Positions 2,709 through 10,701 of a stretch of DNA of 64,000 bases are shown here, piece by piece (position 1 is the stretch's first letter; each line of letters opens with the position of its first letter). The notes beneath the pieces were generated by a model. It did not search any database. It worked only from the letters and a program-made list of their open reading frames with translations, and was not told the origin of the DNA. The stretch is taken from contig JAGBEO010000004.1 of the NCBI GenBank assembly GCA_017936885.1, forward strand, positions 124,001 through 188,000, given 5' to 3'. This stretch comes from Lachnospiraceae bacterium (GTDB lineage Bacteria > Bacillota > Clostridia > Lachnospirales > Lachnospiraceae). The position numbers and the translations under genes are program-made.

Positions 2709-5348
2709 ATGAGTCTTAACGTTGCAAACAAAAAAGTCATACGCCACATCAGCTTCCGGAGCATGAAAACGGCAAAAACAAGAAATATTGTTGCCGTCCT
2801 CGCTATCGCACTGACCACGGTTTTATTCACGGCGCTTTTTACCATCGCCATGTCCATTTCCAACAGCTTTGAACAGAGTAATTTCAGGCAGGCGGGCGGC
2901 TACAGCCACGGTACTTTCAAATATCTGACAGAAGAACAGAAGGATCTGCTGAAAACCGATACTATGATACAAAAATACGGCTGCCGTCTCGTACTCGGTC
3001 TTCTCTCTGAGGAACCCTTTAACAAAGCTCATGTAGAAGTCAGCTACTGTGATGAACAGGAAGCAGATTTCTATTTTCTGCACCCCGAAAAGGGACGTTT
3101 GCCAAAGGAAGGCACGAAAGAAGCGGCAACCGACACAAGAGTTCTATCCCTGCTTGGCATCGAGCCGGAGATCGGCACGGAATTCACCCTGACGATTGAC
3201 GTGGACGGTGTTCCGGTCACAGAGACCTTTACCCTCTGCGGTTATTGGGAATATGATGAAGCAATTGTGGCAAGCCATGTGCTGCTGCCTGAAGATCTGG
3301 TGAAAGAAATTCTTGCGAAAACAGACCGTCCCAATCCCAGTAATTGGATCGGGGTTTACTATCTGGATGTTATGTTCGAGAATTCTCTTCATATCGAAGA
3401 TGACATGAAGACCGTTCTTTCCCATTACGGTTATCAGGCGGATGACAGCTCCCAGACAGAGGATTATCTCGCCATCGGCGTCAACTGGGGTTACGTTGGC
3501 GCACAGCTTAACGGCAATATGGACCCCCTTACCGTGCTCTCCATCATTGCGATGCTGTTACTGATTATTTTTACAGGCTATCTGATCATTTATAATGTTT
3601 TTCAGATCTCTGTCTCCAACGACATCCGGTTTTATGGATTATTAAAAACCATCGGGACAACCGGACGCCAGATCAGGCGCATGGTTTTCCATCAGGCAGT
3701 TATGCTCTCCGCAATCGGTATTCCCATCGGACTGCTCCTTGGCTACGGCATCGGCGCGCTGTTGGTTCCGATCGTGATTTCCACGCTGGATGGCATTCCC
3801 TCAACTGATCTGTCCATAAACCCGCTTATTTTCGTGATCGCCGCCCTCTTTTCCCTGATCACCGTCACGATCTCCTGCCGGAAACCGGGTAAAATGGCAG
3901 CCAAAGTATCTCCTATCGAGGCAGTCCGCTACACGGAACGAACCGGCGGGAAGAAGACAAAGCGCAGGGTAAAAACAGGCGCTTCCATTCCGAAAATGGC
4001 ATGGGCGAATCTGGGTAGGAACCGGAAAAAGACTGTAATTACTGTTTTGTCCTTATCTCTTGCCGTAGTATTATTGAACCTGATGTTTACCTTTACAGGC
4101 GGTTTTGATATGGATAAATATATCAGTAAGTTTCTTTCCAACGATTTCACGCTGGCAGATGCCAGTTATATGAACTCATCCCACTGGTCAGGCGAAGGGC
4201 TCCCAGAAGAAGCCATTTCCGCCGTCACACAGGCAGGCAGCATTGCAGAGGGCGGCAGAACCTACGGAAAGGTAAGCCTCATCTCCGAATTTGTAACAGA
4301 AGAAGCCCTGCGGGCATACTACTCTGGTTATCCAGAGACGATTGTTGACGCCAGAGTCAACGGATGCGAAGTCGTAGACGGGCTGCTGCAGACCGATGTA
4401 CAGCTCTACGGTATGGAACCTTTTTGCCTGGATAGTCTGATCCTATTGGAAGGCGATCTCTCCAAACTCTATGAAGAGGGCGATTATATCGCCGCCGTCT
4501 ATTTGCTGGATGACTATGACCACATGATGCCGCATACCAACTGGGCTAAGGTGGGGGATAAAGTCAGACTCCGCTACACAGAGGAATGGGAATATTACAA
4601 TCCCGAAACCGGTGTGATTTACGAGAATCCCGATCCGGAAAACGACACCTTCAAAGCCCGTTCCGTCAAATATCAGGATAAAGAATATGAAGTGGTGGCT
4701 CTGGTTGCCGTTCCGAACGGTCTCTCCTACCGTTATTACGGAAACGATACCTTTGTCTTAAATGCAGACCCCTTTAAGCGCGACACCGGCACGGACACCA
4801 TCATGTATTATACCTTTAATATGGAAGAGGGTGCCGTTCCCGCTATGGAAAGCTTTTTAGCGGACTTTACAGACAAAGTGATGCCTCAGTATGACTATGA
4901 AAGCCAGAACTCCTATGCGGAGGAATTTGATTCCTTTAGAACGATGTTCCTCATCATGGGAAGTGTACTGAGCTTTATCATCGGGCTGGTTGGTATCCTG
5001 AACTTCCTCAATGCGATCTTAACAAGCATCCTCACAAGGCATCGGGAATTTGCGGTTTTACAGTCTGTCGGCATGACCGGCAAGCAGTTAAAAACCATGC
5101 TGGTAACAGAAGGGCTGCTGCTCGCTCTAGGCTCAGTTGTATTTTCCTTCCTTTTTGTCCTTGCGACAGGACCCTTATGCTCCAATATGTTCAGCAGTAT
5201 ATTCTGGTTTTTCACCTACCGCTTTACCATACTGCCGGTAATTGTGATCGCACCGTTTTTCGCACTGCTGGGCGCACTGATACCGCTTGTTACTTATCGG
5301 TACAGTTCTAAGAAATCTATTGTAGAGAGGCTTCGGGAAGCGGAATAA
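2709..5348 (+). CDS. FtsX-like ABC transporter permease
   Basis: About 879 residues. An N-terminal membrane helix precedes a large extracellular domain. A first FtsX module (around residues 270-420) and a second module at the C-terminus (last about 130 residues) each carry several helices, with another long extracellular domain between them. This two-module layout is typical of MacB/LolC-like mechanotransmission permeases of Gram-positive bacteria. The start at 2709 (AGGCAGG upstream) is preferred over the in-frame ATG at 2580, which would overlap the ATPase gene by over 100 bases. It forms a transport unit with the preceding ATPase. Confidence 0.9.
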   Translation: MSLNVANKKVIRHISFRSMKTAKTRNIVAVLAIALTTVLFTALFTIAMSISNSFEQSNFRQAGGYSHGTFKYLTEEQKDLLKTDTMIQKYGCRLVLGLLSEEPFNKAHVEVSYCDEQEADFYFLHPEKGRLPKEGTKEAATDTRVLSLLGIEPEIGTEFTLTIDVDGVPVTETFTLCGYWEYDEAIVASHVLLPEDLVKEILAKTDRPNPSNWIGVYYLDVMFENSLHIEDDMKTVLSHYGYQADDSSQTEDYLAIGVNWGYVGAQLNGNMDPLTVLSIIAMLLLIIFTGYLIIYNVFQISVSNDIRFYGLLKTIGTTGRQIRRMVFHQAVMLSAIGIPIGLLLGYGIGALLVPIVISTLDGIPSTDLSINPLIFVIAALFSLITVTISCRKPGKMAAKVSPIEAVRYTERTGGKKTKRRVKTGASIPKMAWANLGRNRKKTVITVLSLSLAVVLLNLMFTFTGGFDMDKYISKFLSNDFTLADASYMNSSHWSGEGLPEEAISAVTQAGSIAEGGRTYGKVSLISEFVTEEALRAYYSGYPETIVDARVNGCEVVDGLLQTDVQLYGMEPFCLDSLILLEGDLSKLYEEGDYIAAVYLLDDYDHMMPHTNWAKVGDKVRLRYTEEWEYYNPETGVIYENPDPENDTFKARSVKYQDKEYEVVALVAVPNGLSYRYYGNDTFVLNADPFKRDTGTDTIMYYTFNMEEGAVPAMESFLADFTDKVMPQYDYESQNSYAEEFDSFRTMFLIMGSVLSFIIGLVGILNFLNAILTSILTRHREFAVLQSVGMTGKQLKTMLVTEGLLLALGSVVFSFLFVLATGPLCSNMFSSIFWFFTYRFTILPVIVIAPFFALLGALIPLVTYRYSSKKSIVERLREAE

Positions 5349-6927: not shown

Positions 6928-7577
6928 ACCAAAAAGAATTCTATCAGGAGATCGGTAATATAGATGATGACCTGATTCAAGCAGCAAATAAAGATTATGG
7001 GTTAAAACATAATGTACGAGTGCTCTATCGCATTGCTTGGGCAGCAGCCTGTTTGTGCCTGATTTGCGGTGGAATTTTGTTTGGATTACAGAAAGACACT
7101 CTTTATATTAACGATATCTCCATACCGATGGCTTCCAAAGTTATTGTTCCTACAGATGAAAACACAAAGATCATTCCTATGACCTATCAGGAGTTACTTG
7201 CTTATTATGGAATGGAACAACTACCCGATTCTTTGGGAGAAGAATTGACAAGAGAAGAACAATCTTATTTTGTTCTTTATAAGGATCAAGAAGATAACGT
7301 TTTGTGTGATACAAATATTTTGTATTACAACAGCAGCGACAACAGCATGACATTATCAATTACCCTTGCCAAAGCAAATGAGCCTTCCAATACTTTCCAT
7401 GGAGATATAAAGCGGTCTAAAATTAACGGCGTTTCTATGATACTCGCATCCACAGATCAAACAGCATATTGGGCAAGTTTCAAATTGAATGATATATCAT
7501 TCAAAATAACTTCCTATGGTTTGAACGAGGAATCTTTCCTCAATATAGTAAAAGAGTTTATCCGATTTGTAAAATAG
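6924..7577 (+). CDS. Membrane-anchored probable anti-sigma factor
   Basis: 217 residues. A cytoplasmic N-terminal segment of about 38 residues begins like many anti-sigma proteins (NQKEFYQEIGNIDDDLIQAA). One membrane helix follows (about residues 42-58, AWAAACLCLICGGILFG), then an extracellular domain of about 155 residues. It shares four bases with the sigma factor gene. The coupling and topology support an anti-sigma role. The outer domain is not recognised and may be the sensor, with the lipoprotein at 5896 as a possible partner. Confidence 0.7.
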   Translation: MNQKEFYQEIGNIDDDLIQAANKDYGLKHNVRVLYRIAWAAACLCLICGGILFGLQKDTLYINDISIPMASKVIVPTDENTKIIPMTYQELLAYYGMEQLPDSLGEELTREEQSYFVLYKDQEDNVLCDTNILYYNSSDNSMTLSITLAKANEPSNTFHGDIKRSKINGVSMILASTDQTAYWASFKLNDISFKITSYGLNEESFLNIVKEFIRFVK

Positions 7578-7655
7578 AAGAAGATAAAGGCCCGCTAATC
7601 TATAACATTGTGGGAATAAACAACTTATGGAACCGTAAGTTTGCCAACGGTAAAA

Positions 7656-8159
7656 TTAAAAACTGCGAAGCTTATCACTTCCGTCATCTACCGTATTCTC
7701 AATGGACTTAATTACCACGTAATATCCCACATTAGCGTTAACCTCTACATACACCCGGTCATTCACCTTGTGCCCCAATAACGCCTTGCCAAGCGGAGAC
7801 TCCGTGCTGATAAGCCCCTCTAAGGAATTGCCACGCACCGTTGTTACCAATTTATATTTCTCCGTAATGTTGTCCTCCTCGAAGAATACCTCTACCGTAT
7901 TGTTCATACCGACTTCATCTTCTGCCGATTCATCAGACACTACAACCGCCGTCTTAATCATTCTCTCCAGATAGCGGATACGGCTTTCATTCTGATTCTT
8001 AAATTTCTTCGCCGCATAGTACTCGAAATTCTCACTCAAGTCCCCTTGCGCTCTTGCTTCCTTGACATCCTCAAGCGCATTTTTACGCACCACAAGCTTA
8101 CGGTATTCAATTTCCTCTTCCATCTTTTGGATGTCCTGTTTCGTCAATTCATTATGCAT
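7656..8159 (-). CDS. greA: Transcription elongation factor GreA/GreB family
   Basis: 167 residues. An N-terminal coiled coil carries the acidic tip that reaches into RNA polymerase (ARAQGDLSENFEYYAAK), and a C-terminal FKBP-like domain follows (SPLGKALLGHKVNDRVYV). Together they rescue backtracked polymerase by stimulating transcript cleavage. The DLSEN motif with catalytic acidic residues is intact. Ribosome site GGGGAG precedes the start. The domain order matches GreA. It may be a second, accessory Gre paralogue, since it is slightly divergent and not next to lysS or dus genes. Confidence 0.85.
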   Translation of the reverse strand: MHNELTKQDIQKMEEEIEYRKLVVRKNALEDVKEARAQGDLSENFEYYAAKKFKNQNESRIRYLERMIKTAVVVSDESAEDEVGMNNTVEVFFEEDNITEKYKLVTTVRGNSLEGLISTESPLGKALLGHKVNDRVYVEVNANVGYYVVIKSIENTVDDGSDKLRSF

Positions 8160-8239
8160 GATCCGTTCTCCCCACTTATCAACATTATACTATATCCCTT
8201 CAAAAGCCTTACACTCAGAATATTCACCTGTCCAGCTCG

Positions 8240-8274
8240 CCAAAAACAAAGAATCCTGCGAAGCACAGGATTCT
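8240..8274 (-). terminator. Terminator of the HPr-like gene
   Basis: AGAATCCTG and CAGGATTCT (8250-8258 / 8266-8274) form a perfect 9-bp stem; on the minus strand a T-rich tail (TTGTTTTTGG) follows. Confidence 0.8.
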
Positions 8275-8304
8275 CTGACTGTCTATATCATTCATAACAG
8301 AAGC

Positions 8305-8541
8305 TTATTTGCCGCTTACCATGTACTCAAGAAGACGGTTTACATCGTCAGGATCATGTGCTACGATCTCCATCTCCGGAATCATATTATCCGCAAAAAG
8401 CTTAGTAAGCGCTACATACTTTGTCAACTGGGATTTCAGATTTAATCTGTCACCCTCTGCCGTTACAAGCTCTACAGTTCCTTTACACTTGTTTACAACT
8501 TCGAAAAACTTTTCAGGATCGTCAATGTTCATTACTTTCAT
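8305..8541 (-). CDS. HPr-like protein without the active-site histidine
   Basis: 78 residues, HPr size. The second half follows the HPr pattern of helix 2 and helix 3 (RLNLKSQLTKYVALTKLF, then DPDDVNRLLEYM). The N-terminal part lacks the GLHARPA phosphorylation loop: no histidine lies near residue 15, where a Lys/Cys/Lys stretch (NKCKGTVEL) stands instead. It therefore should not act as a phosphocarrier for sugar import and may be a regulatory relative, comparable to Crh-like proteins. Ribosome site GAGGAGG is excellent. Family assignment is inference from the fold pattern. Confidence 0.6.
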   Translation of the reverse strand: MKVMNIDDPEKFFEVVNKCKGTVELVTAEGDRLNLKSQLTKYVALTKLFADNMIPEMEIVAHDPDDVNRLLEYMVSGK

Positions 8542-8682
8542 GATTTTTTCCTCCTCATGCTCTCTTCTTTATATTATTTCTTTGTACACTTTACATATTA
8601 CACATTTTGGTCGTCTTGTCAAATGATTTTATAAATAAACAAAAAATATGCAAAAACACAAAATAGAAATGCTGTCATTCTC

Positions 8683-8726
8683 AACGTTTCCACTGAATTA
8701 AGAAGAACGCGAGACGAACTCGAATT
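8683..8726. repeat. Attachment-site-like copy of the tRNA-Gly 3' end (distal side)
   Basis: This stretch matches the tRNA-Gly 3' end and its flank at 10393-10434. CGTTTCCAC, then 13 of the next 14 bases of AGAACGCGAGACG, then ACTCGAA line up in the same spacing with a single-base gap. The geometry fits insertion of an element downstream of the minus-strand tRNA gene. The copy is degraded, so the event is old. Confidence 0.55.
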
Positions 8727-8734
8727 TTTTCCCA

Positions 8735-8899
8735 AAAGCAGAATTTTCTGACAATTGCGTTCCATCGGAAAGCGGAAGTTTTGATATCATTACGCAGCAT
8801 TTCGATGATGCCGTGTCGCACATGAACAACAGCCTGAGGTATCTTGTCGCTGCGAAGAATACTGACTGGATGCAGGATTATGATGCGTTGCTGGCGTGA
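8735..8899 (+). pseudogene. C-terminal remnant of an unidentified ORF
   Basis: An open plus-strand frame ends at the TGA at 8897-8899 and reads as plausible protein (FDIITQHFDDAVSHMNNSLR, then YLVAAKNTDWMQDYDALLA). It has no start or ribosome site and runs leftward into the attachment-like repeat. I read it as the tail of a gene once carried by the element and truncated at its end. Function unknown. Confidence 0.35.
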
Positions 8900-9004
8900 T
8901 CCGGTATAGTGCATAGGGCTCGGAAGCCCTGATCGGCAGTTTCATACATAATTTGATCGCGGTGCTGGTCTTCCGCTTCTTTTGCGTGGAATTGATAAAA
9001 TATT

Positions 9005-9032
9005 TCCTAAATTTGACAAAATGTGATATACT
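9005..9032 (+). promoter_or_regulatory. Promoter of the 28-codon peptide gene
   Basis: TATACT at 9027-9032 has an upstream TG (TGTGA context, extended -10). A poor -35 lies 17 bases upstream (TTCCTA). It is well placed to drive the small peptide gene at 9079. Confidence 0.5.
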
Positions 9033-9078
9033 GCTTGTGTTACCGCCCCGATACTGGCAACAGGAAGGGGGTGTCTGT

Positions 9079-9165
9079 GTGGATGTACTTTGTTCTTTTT
9101 TAGTCGCCGTCGCGGCTGGCGTAGCCTGCCACTACGTCATCAAGTGGTTAGACGGCGATGAATAA
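9079..9165 (+). CDS. 28-residue hydrophobic Fst-like peptide (possible type I toxin)
   Basis: GTG start with a strong ribosome site (AGGAAGGGGG at 9062-9071). The peptide has one membrane helix (VLCSFLVAVAAGVACHYVI) and a charged end KWLDGDE. Fst/Ldr-type type I toxins have the same layout: a short hydrophobic stretch followed by a W-L-D/N motif and a charged tail. A bidirectional terminator follows directly, and a perfect TATAAT box reads back across it from the other strand (9295-9300). Toxin function is inferred from pattern and arrangement. An alternative is a small membrane protein of unknown role in mobile elements. Confidence 0.55.
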   Translation: MDVLCSFLVAVAAGVACHYVIKWLDGDE

Positions 9166-9208
9166 TCGGTAACTAGCCCAAACGGTTGACTTCTCCGCAA
9201 AAGAAGAA

Positions 9209-9254
9209 GAACCTCCGATTGTACCGCAAATACAGTCGGGGGTTCGTTCTTTTT
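9209..9254. terminator. Bidirectional terminator after the small peptide gene
   Basis: A 15-bp stem (9209-9223 with 9231-9245, two G-T pairs) with a 7-base loop is followed on the plus strand by GTTCTTTTT. On the minus strand the same stem is followed by TTCTTCTTTT, so it could end both the peptide mRNA and an antisense transcript. Confidence 0.8.
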
Positions 9255-9294
9255 GTGTCTGCATAGATAATACTTTGTCTTTTTGCCTACGGCA

Positions 9295-9323
9295 ATTATA
9301 GCATATGCAAATGGCAAATGCAA
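9295..9323 (-). promoter_or_regulatory. Candidate antisense-RNA promoter
   Basis: The minus strand carries TATAAT (plus coordinates 9295-9300) with TTGCAT 17 bases upstream (9318-9323). Transcription would start near 9288, cross the shared terminator and oppose the 3' end of the small peptide mRNA. No coding region with a ribosome site follows on that strand, which fits a regulatory RNA. Confidence 0.5.
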
Positions 9324-9450
9324 TAAACATTGAAAACAAAAAATATCGATTCTGTGAAGGACACCCAGTATGTTTATACGCTCGTGAAGGAAGATTTCAA
9401 AACCGGGGAGCGTGCAAAACGGACAAAAAGTATTATTCTTTCAGACCTAA

Positions 9451-10329
9451 CCTGAAAGTACTGATAGCCCTAACACGATTAAACGTCATACACAGCATTA
9501 TAAGCGTTATTTTGAACAGTCGGGACTACATAATATGCCAGTCCGCCGGATCGATACACTCTTATTAGAATCCGAATGCAACCGCCTTGTAAAAGAATAC
9601 AGCATGACAAGAAAAGAATGGAATAATGTAAAAACTATTCTTATAGGCTGTTTTGAGTATGCCACTCGAAAAAAGTACATCACAGCCAATCCAATGGATG
9701 ATGTAAAAATCCTTGTGAAATATCGGCAGATAGTGAAAAAGACGGGAAAAACAGAAACCTATAACACGGAAGAATTAGAAAACCTGAATAAGTATCTTGA
9801 TACAATGTATGCAGAAACAGAAGATGTGGTTTTTCTAGCCGTCAAAATAAATTTCCTGTTAGGTCTGCGGGTTGGTGAATTGGTCGCTCTGAAATGGGAA
9901 GACTGTAAGGAACAATCTCACATTCATGTTGTACGTGAGGAAGTCAGAAATCAGGAAACAAACTGTTATGATGTGGTGGAGCATACGAAGACAAACCGTG
10001 ACCGTTATGTGGTACTTGTTCCTAAAGCGATATCTATTTTGGAGAAAATACCAAAACAGGGTAGCTATATCTTTATGAGGGATGGGGAACGAATTACTAC
10101 CAGGCAGATTGCATATGTACTTGAAAAATATGCACAGCGACAAGGGATGACAACCAAAAGCACACACAAGATGCGAAAGACCTATGCAAGCAACCTAAAC
10201 GCGAACGGTGTACCTTTGGATTGTATCAGGGAGATGCTGGGGCATAGCAGTCTGTCAACCACACTTGGATATATATACAACCCGCTTACAGAATCAGAGA
10301 CATATAATCTCATAGCCAAGGCTTTATAG
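9451..10329 (+). pseudogene. Tyrosine recombinase/integrase, 5' end broken
   Basis: The intact part holds an N-terminal SAM-like segment (SPNTIKRHTQHYKRYFEQSG) and the full catalytic domain. Arg is in LLGLRVGELVALKW, the His-x-x-Arg box in THKMRKTYAS, the second His in MLGHSSLSTTLGYIY, and Tyr nucleophile in that last motif. The frame is cut by a stop at 9448-9450, and integrase-like residues just upstream (ERAKRTKSIILSDL) lie in another frame, so the N-terminus is frameshifted. The longest ATG frame starts at 9535. Its position next to the tRNA-Gly 3' end supports its being the recombinase that placed this element there. Confidence 0.75.
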
Positions 10330-10363
10330 ACTGTCTTCAACTGTCTTCAAATTTGCAGACACA

Positions 10364-10400
10364 CAAAAAAAGCGGAAACGCCGTATTTATCAGCGTTTCC
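10364..10400 (-). terminator. Terminator of tRNA-Gly
   Basis: On the minus strand GGAAACGC and GCGTTTCC (10393-10400 / 10374-10381) pair around an 11-base loop and are followed by seven T residues. Confidence 0.8.
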
Positions 10401-10434
10401 ACACTTTTAGAAAGAGCGCGAGACGGGACTCGAA
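10393..10434. repeat. tRNA-proximal attachment-site-like repeat
   Basis: Matching partner of 8683-8726, overlapping the 3' end of tRNA-Gly and the right arm of its terminator. Together the two copies bracket about 1.7 kb that contains the integrase remnant and the small peptide gene. Confidence 0.55.
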
Positions 10435-10487
10435 CCCGCGACCCCGACCTTGGCAAGGTCGTGCTCCACCAACTGAGCCACTCGCGC
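10415..10487 (-). tRNA. tRNA-Gly (anticodon GCC)
   Basis: On the minus strand the acceptor stem GCGCGAG/CTCGCGC closes perfectly. The D arm (GGCTCAGTTGGT), anticodon arm GACCTTGCCAAGGTC with GCC at 10452-10454, and the T arm (GGGTTCGAGTCCC) are canonical. The CCA end is not encoded. The 3' end serves as the integration target for the neighbouring decayed element. Confidence 0.96.
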
Positions 10488-10701
10488 ATATACTTGTCTG
10501 AGTTATTTTTGTTTCTGTATCCCTCGGACAAGTATTAATATACTATATAGCTTTTACTTTGTCAATAAAAAATTTTAATTTTTTTAAATTCAATAATCTT
10601 TTTAAATTTTTCTAAATATATATGCAACTTATTAGGTTTTCAGACAATTCCACCAAATCCCAATTCAGTTAACATAACTATTTCTTTCCCCTGATATATA
10701 C

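Follow-up and report, generated by a model that had tools for sequence, protein, structure and literature searches.

The 64,000-nucleotide stretch of DNA analysed here (the window), from a Lachnospiraceae bacterium, contains at positions 9,005 to 9,323 a very short GTG-initiated reading frame, a hairpin and a promoter directed back across it from the opposite strand, which raises the question of whether these elements constitute a toxin-antitoxin locus and, if so, of which kind. The par locus of pAD1 is described as combining convergent promoters, a shared terminator, the direct repeats DRa and DRb, a sequestered 5' end and ribosome site, and a membrane peptide (PMC7472228). The window locus is very probably a type I toxin-antitoxin module on this par/Fst plan, and likely belongs to the par/Fst superfamily, in a clade that is missed by the present Pfam models and lies close to the pneumococcal SpF66. 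A first-pass annotation had already proposed a type I module of the Fst kind, and this call is supported by the sequence, the architecture and the co-variation observed in relatives, since the peptide, the repeats, the promoter and the 5'-3' helix of the toxin mRNA are retained or covary there. Modules of this kind are already known, and the present one is also encountered in relatives, plasmids and phages.

The putative toxin is a 28-amino acid membrane peptide with a GTG start, encoded at 9079-9165 on the plus strand (translation VDVLCSFLVAVAAGVACHYVIKWLDGDE) and preceded by the ribosome-binding site GGAAGGGGGTG (9063-9073, plus strand), which is predicted to pair with CGCCCC in the 5' leader in a 5'-SL-like structure. 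The strong ribosome site, membrane helix and KWLDGDE tail annotated earlier for this 28-codon gene are all present. The peptide has a 17-residue hydropathy of 2.29, and K22-W23 is followed by the charged tail LDGDE; one hydrophobic helix, a conserved tryptophan and a charged C-terminus, as in the short peptides of par/Fst loci, are found together in this reading frame. The P/D/S/T-XXX-G motif is absent, with A10-V-A-A-G14 found there. Among the 28 aligned members of the family, column 10 is occupied by A in eighteen and S in ten, and column 14 by G in twenty-five and S in three, while K22 and W23 are invariant (28/28). This invariance, together with a pN/pS of 0.32 for codons 9-25 among relatives (25 of 32 suitable sequences), indicates that selection acts on a peptide. 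According to PMC7472228, the P/D/S/T-XXX-G motif occurs in the majority of the toxins and is thus not strictly defining, and in Fst-pAD1 the P and G are essential and alanine is not tolerated in the hydrophobic stretch. Comparison of the window peptide against family libraries returned nothing firm (Maff2, E 0.14; phrog_3796, E 0.29; none in NCBIfam). The Pfam Fst model (PF13955, Fst_toxin), which had been suggested as a check, does not recognise the window peptide and matches only 1/28 members (E 0.0047); its curated cut-off was exceeded in 0/200 same-family genomes (4/200 at E 0.1), and likewise in 0/14 control genomes, so that the sensitivity of this search is unproven.

The first-pass annotation had made its proposal dependent on conservation among relatives, and the peptide occurs in 57/200 same-family genomes, the window's own included, where the module is present in one copy. 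Using a profile search, it could be found in 54/295 genomes of the order and 15/398 of the phylum. Sixty-six modules were taken from 71 toxin-based loci, leaving out five places too near to contig ends and the duplicate L001, and pair tests were performed on 61 of these, with five further modules excluded because they had no match to the toxin promoter or their reading frame was too long.

Two RNAs can be placed on the window locus. The predicted toxin mRNA, RNA I (~215 nt; 9039-~9253, plus strand), begins 6 nt past an extended -10 (TGATATACT; 9024-9032, plus strand), its extent agreeing with the RF02442 alignment and its predicted fold having z = -4.67. Besides this extended -10, the predicted toxin promoter has a weak -35. 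A TTGACA at 9013-9018 was ruled out as the -35 as it is situated only 8 nt from the -10. The predicted antisense antitoxin RNA, RNA II (~80-90 nt; ~9287-~9199, minus strand), is placed on the basis of its promoter, its duplex with the start of RNA I and its fold. The RNA II promoter (9295-9323, minus strand), recognised by sequence and conservation, comprises TTGCAT (9318-9323), a 17 nt spacer and TATAAT (9295-9300) with TGC before it (extended -10 TGCTATAAT, minus strand), in agreement with the box and spacer reported earlier. Judged from sequence only, the RNA I and RNA II promoters are convergent. The minus-strand reading frames across the antisense promoter (63 aa) start upstream of the predicted RNA II, and it therefore has no reading frame to serve, as had been claimed. 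Between the two promoters is the common terminator hairpin (9209-9245), which bears T-rich tails on both strands (GTTCTTTTTG on the plus strand and TTCTTCTTTT on the minus strand) as described in the first-pass annotation, with only the plus side passing an automatic terminator rule. RNA II is predicted to fold around this hairpin (-22.6 kcal/mol; z -2.58). A U-turn (YUNR) in the terminator loop is a feature of par/Fst loci, absent from some homologs.

The key part missed by the earlier annotation is a direct repeat. DRa (9071-9100, plus strand) spans the start codon and first codons of the toxin gene together with the margin of its ribosome site, while DRb (9255-9284) is located in the 5' part of RNA II, which it makes complementary to the toxin ribosome site and start. 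The score of this pair in the window is 34, a value reached by 0/2000 shuffles. The predicted antisense RNA does overlap the 3' end of the toxin message, as proposed earlier, but is not restricted to it, as DRb can also pair with the ribosome site and start codon; a model with an overlap at the 3' end only was replaced by one with split repeats. Among the 66 modules, the mean score of a module's own DRa/DRb pair is 36.6, compared to 19.2 (sd 3.6) between different loci, scores of at least 30 are attained by 58/66 own pairs and 1.3 % of cross pairs, and the own pair is the top of its row in 52/66. At the level of sequence, DRa and DRb co-evolve locus by locus. Similarly, the predicted duplex between the start of RNA I and RNA II has a mean energy of -42.1 kcal/mol for own pairs versus -23.95 kcal/mol, with the own partner being best in 54/61 loci. 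For the window, the mRNA-antisense pairing proposed as a check gave a predicted duplex of -49.4 kcal/mol, ranking first of 61 candidates.

No convincing second repeat was found in 5/66 modules (L017, L028, L050, L058 and L071; own rank >3). Three of these (L017, L028 and L071), with a toxin reading frame and ribosome site and the second repeat undetected, are possibly orphan toxins or are controlled in another mode. Locus L028 also incorporates, near its toxin module, a match to the Rfam DUF3800-XI RNA (2719-2766, minus strand; 68.5 bits). The repeat test is weaker outside the family, where L237, L239, L241, L242 and L243 fail to beat their best foreign partner. Head-to-tail arrays of the module occur in L233, L230, L231, L232, L236 and L238, their starts being spaced by 334-619 bases and L233 having as many as six copies. 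Eight loci contain two to six same-strand copies, 24 modules in total, and with search stretches ended before the next copy, 24/24 modules matched their own partner best within the locus, which suggests that neighbouring modules of an array do not silence each other.

A second set of complementary sequences is found within RNA I itself. The 5' arm GTTACCG (9039-9045, plus strand), at the predicted RNA I 5' end, is complementary to CGGTAAC (9167-9173, plus strand) just past the stop codon. Across the loci the predicted RNA I 5' ends read GUUACCG, GUUGUC and similar, with the complement at the stop codon; the sequence differs between loci and the complement changes with it, and this 5'-3' helix thus covaries. 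The mean Watson-Crick length is 6.48 for own pairs versus 4.93, a difference reached by 0/20000 permutations, and at least seven pairs are formed by 33/61 own pairs and 13 % of cross pairs. This contiguous-pair measure was used besides duplex energy, by which the own partner was the best in only 2/61 modules (median rank 13), with the own mean still better than all permutations; the poor ranking is probably the result of many loci sharing one helix type. The helix is missing from the minimum-energy fold of the single RNA I sequence. The predicted unpaired probability in RNA I is 0.35 for the ribosome site and 0.07 for the start codon, and the ribosome site is predicted to be sequestered in a 5' stem-loop.

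As in the par locus of pAD1 (Fst/RNA I/RNA II; Enterococcus faecalis) as described, the window locus has convergent predicted RNAs, a bidirectional terminator, DRa/DRb over the toxin start, an RNA I whose 5' end and ribosome site lie in predicted helices, and a short membrane peptide with a charged tail, and the predicted RNA I of ~215 nt compares with ~230 nt in pAD1. Differences from the prototype include the peptide, which is missed by PF13955 and has A/S-V-x-A/G-G/S instead of PXXXG, with a tryptophan at the position given for a valine in Fst-pAD1, as well as the predicted length of RNA II (80-90 nt versus the ~40 nt stated for pAD1), the hosts and the probable inovirus carrier. The enterobacterial Ldr toxins (ldr/rdl) share, by the description in PMC7472228, the signature of a tryptophan plus charged tail and are set apart by a hok/sok-like regulation. 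Type I modules of Clostridioides difficile (CD2517.1-RCd8 and others), as presented in PMC6563280, likewise have a convergent toxin gene and antisense RNA and homologs in phages, but their toxins are of 50-53 aa without homology to known type I toxins, and their two RNAs share a long overlap rather than split repeats.

By analogy with this plan, RNA II would be transcribed leftward and would meet RNA I at the complementary terminator loops, after which its copy of DRb would pair with DRa and cover the ribosome site and GTG, while the 5' structures of RNA I would keep the message untranslated and protected from decay up to the moment of pairing. On loss of the element, RNA II would decay, and the peptide would be made and insert into the membrane. 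The module would thus stabilise its carrier by post-segregational killing.

Rfam provides a further link to a known RNA. The covariance model RF02442 aligns over its full length (1-239/239) to 9039-9254 with 31.4 bits (E 5.7e-6), below the gathering threshold of 42, and the match spans RNA I as placed from the -10 and the hairpin. RF02442 matches are present in 46/200 same-family genomes, ten of them over threshold, and in 0/14 control genomes; the peptide is encoded in 42 of these 46 as well. The RF02442 consensus encodes a 32-aa peptide (MSLILELVLTIIADVIAGIILYFVCKWLDGKE) ending in KWLDGKE, which matches the 28-member profile at 29 bits. F66 (SpF66/srn502) of Streptococcus pneumoniae is listed as an sRNA in pneumococcal papers, in which the adjacent F67 is noted as annotated to the Fst family in a genome browser. 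SpF66 is probably the mRNA of an Fst-type toxin, which would be consistent with the DXXXG clade that PMC7472228 names for pneumococcal Fst. This probable identity of a pneumococcal 'sRNA' of Rfam is relevant to the fitness defects of mutants that have been attributed to F66 (PMC3395615).

The surroundings of the window module indicate its carrier. The 3' remnant of a Rep_trans replication initiator, inovirus-like (8756-8899, plus strand; 59 % identity), ends 179 nt before the toxin start, its identification resting on the protein of a relative, and a tyrosine integrase of 264 aa (9535-10329, plus strand), compared to 362 aa for that of the related element, follows the module. These are bordered by an att-like copy of the tRNA-Gly end on the left (8685-8724) and, on the right, an att-like sequence (10394-10434) running into the tRNA-Gly (gcc) gene (10414-10487, minus strand) that serves as integration site, the limits of both repeats being set by eye. 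Only the Rep 3' end, the integrase and the att-like repeats are retained, and the space enclosed by the repeats is too small for coat and Zot genes. A same-genus genome (G882) contains an inovirus-like prophage beside tRNA-Gly (L265, 2316-10441), encoding a PF02486 Rep_trans protein and, 174 nt further on, the toxin, as well as a large coat-like reading frame, a PF05707 Zot protein and an integrase. In genome G060 (L269), Rep is followed 171 nt on by the toxin and by a fused coat-integrase reading frame beside tRNA-Gly, with no match to Zot, while the site is empty in genome G898 (L267). The gap between Rep and toxin falls within 166-179 nt (window 179; L265 174; L269 171; L088 ~166). On the basis of the Rep end, the integrase, the att-like copies, the gaps in L265, L269 and L088 and the empty site in L267, the window module is probably left over from an inovirus-like prophage, so that the 'decayed tRNA element' of the first-pass annotation can be specified as a probable inovirus-like prophage remnant at tRNA-Gly with L265 as relative. 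As the carrier has decayed, the module, though intact-looking, may by now persist as a remnant, either neutral or selfish.

A tie of the whole module family to inoviruses was not borne out, the association being that of a minority. Within the short flanks available, inovirus Rep/Zot queries matched 4/71 toxin-based loci, representing three distinct places (L001 and L002 are both the window), 2/120 promoter-based genome loci among the matches listed, and 0/27 viral loci. The module is also found on small and mid-sized plasmids, including pTRACA41, pRGI00989 and plasmids of Waltera, Mogibacterium and Butyricicoccus, as well as on an Enterococcus faecium conjugative plasmid and two inovirus genomes, and its own repeat is the best match in 7/8 of these plasmid and inovirus copies, the exception being that of Butyricicoccus. 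Among 207 plasmid records with a match at a permissive E limit of 10, 188 were Enterococcus plasmids. On the Enterococcus plasmid L246, the region 1501-1575 is without an annotated gene; the own repeat there scores 42 and the best other 28.

Three other readings of the window locus may be weighed. The downstream TATAAT could be a chance AT-rich sequence and the hairpin the terminator of the toxin gene, with no antisense RNA produced. In a generic scan of 7500-10500, promoters (8 versus 6.9 in shuffles) and terminators (3 versus 2.5) showed no excess, and the RNA II promoter itself, with 3/6 consensus bases in its -35, was unlisted, while an overlapping one (9295-9267) was listed. Owing to this lack of excess, the parts were judged by their conservation, and here the chance reading becomes extremely improbable. 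The antisense -10 matches TGNTATAAT perfectly in 38/66 modules (0.9 % of shuffles) and at eight or more of nine positions in 57/66 (21.9 % of shuffles), with the latter match found at the toxin -10 in 53/66 (10.6 % of shuffles). The antisense promoter profile of 54 loci reads TTGnAa, 17 nt, and TATAAT with TGn before it. When only this promoter pattern was scanned for (at least 149 sites altogether), a toxin adjoined 124/140 sites with enough upstream DNA among the matches listed, whereas 20/420 random control stretches, from which the module itself had not been removed, contained a match. The locus-specific matching of the repeats in 52/66 modules argues in the same direction.

Alternatively, the peptide could be a conserved small membrane protein, such as a phage or plasmid accessory protein, whose translation is under antisense control without it being a toxin. 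Its toxicity is a prediction from sequence, and its A-XXX-G deviates from the Fst toxins studied by mutagenesis as reported in PMC7472228; however, considering that the locus is built just like par loci, including the repeats, shared terminator and 5'-3' helix, and that the module resides on small plasmids and inoviruses, a usual setting of addiction modules, such a role is improbable. More plausible, though still the less likely state of affairs, is that the window copy is an unexpressed remnant, with its sequence intact and production of at least one of the two RNAs lost. It lies in a decayed prophage, in which Rep is truncated and coat and Zot genes have no space, and the decay of modules is evident elsewhere from promoter sites that lack a toxin. 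Yet the toxin reading frame, both promoters, both repeats and the 5'-3' complementarity are all intact in the window, and its predicted RNA duplex is the best of 61. The preferred reading is a type I module on the par/Fst plan.

A relative that escapes the Pfam Fst model occurs in 57/200 same-family genomes. A review of type I systems in Clostridia cites, from an earlier homology search, Fst-like sequences in two clostridial species only (PMC6563280), while par-like loci are described as widespread in Firmicutes, including commensal Clostridia (PMC7472228). The toxin-antitoxin pairs described in the inovirus catalogue are of type II except for one of type IV (PMC6813254), and the word 'antitoxin' is absent from the main text of the report on inoviruses secreted by Enterocloster (PMC10061712). 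Cultivable hosts would allow a type I module on such inoviruses to be tested.

Among the matches listed, sixteen promoter sites lack a toxin, and twelve of these (L083, L089, L104, L124, L129, L155, L163, L172, L181, L190, L194 and L197, the last on a viral contig) were found by reading to keep the terminator, DRb and promoter, with the toxin or its 5' part lost. These orphan RNA II units could be decay products or protective (anti-addiction) antitoxins. It may be speculated, with considerable doubt, that a large Fst-type clade missed by Pfam and NCBIfam is the addiction system of the inoviruses and small plasmids of gut Lachnospiraceae, which hosts counter with orphan RNA II genes; an antitoxin without a toxin would then shield the cell from incoming elements, as an RNA-based anti-addiction system. 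A special match of the orphan RNA IIs to foreign toxins was not borne out, their best scores (20-44, the highest in L155 with the toxin start of another locus) being no higher than those of complete modules, for which the best foreign toxin scores 33.7 on average and at least 34 in 50 % of cases (122 modules, among the matches listed). This weakens the idea of a host defence, and as complete modules match foreign toxins equally well, repeat scores do not discriminate between decay and protection. At two further sites, L128 (near 5418, minus strand) and L178 (near 3284, plus strand), the toxin body and terminator are missing and the toxin leader is joined to the DRb side and RNA II promoter, as would be expected if the two direct repeats had recombined and deleted the DNA between them.
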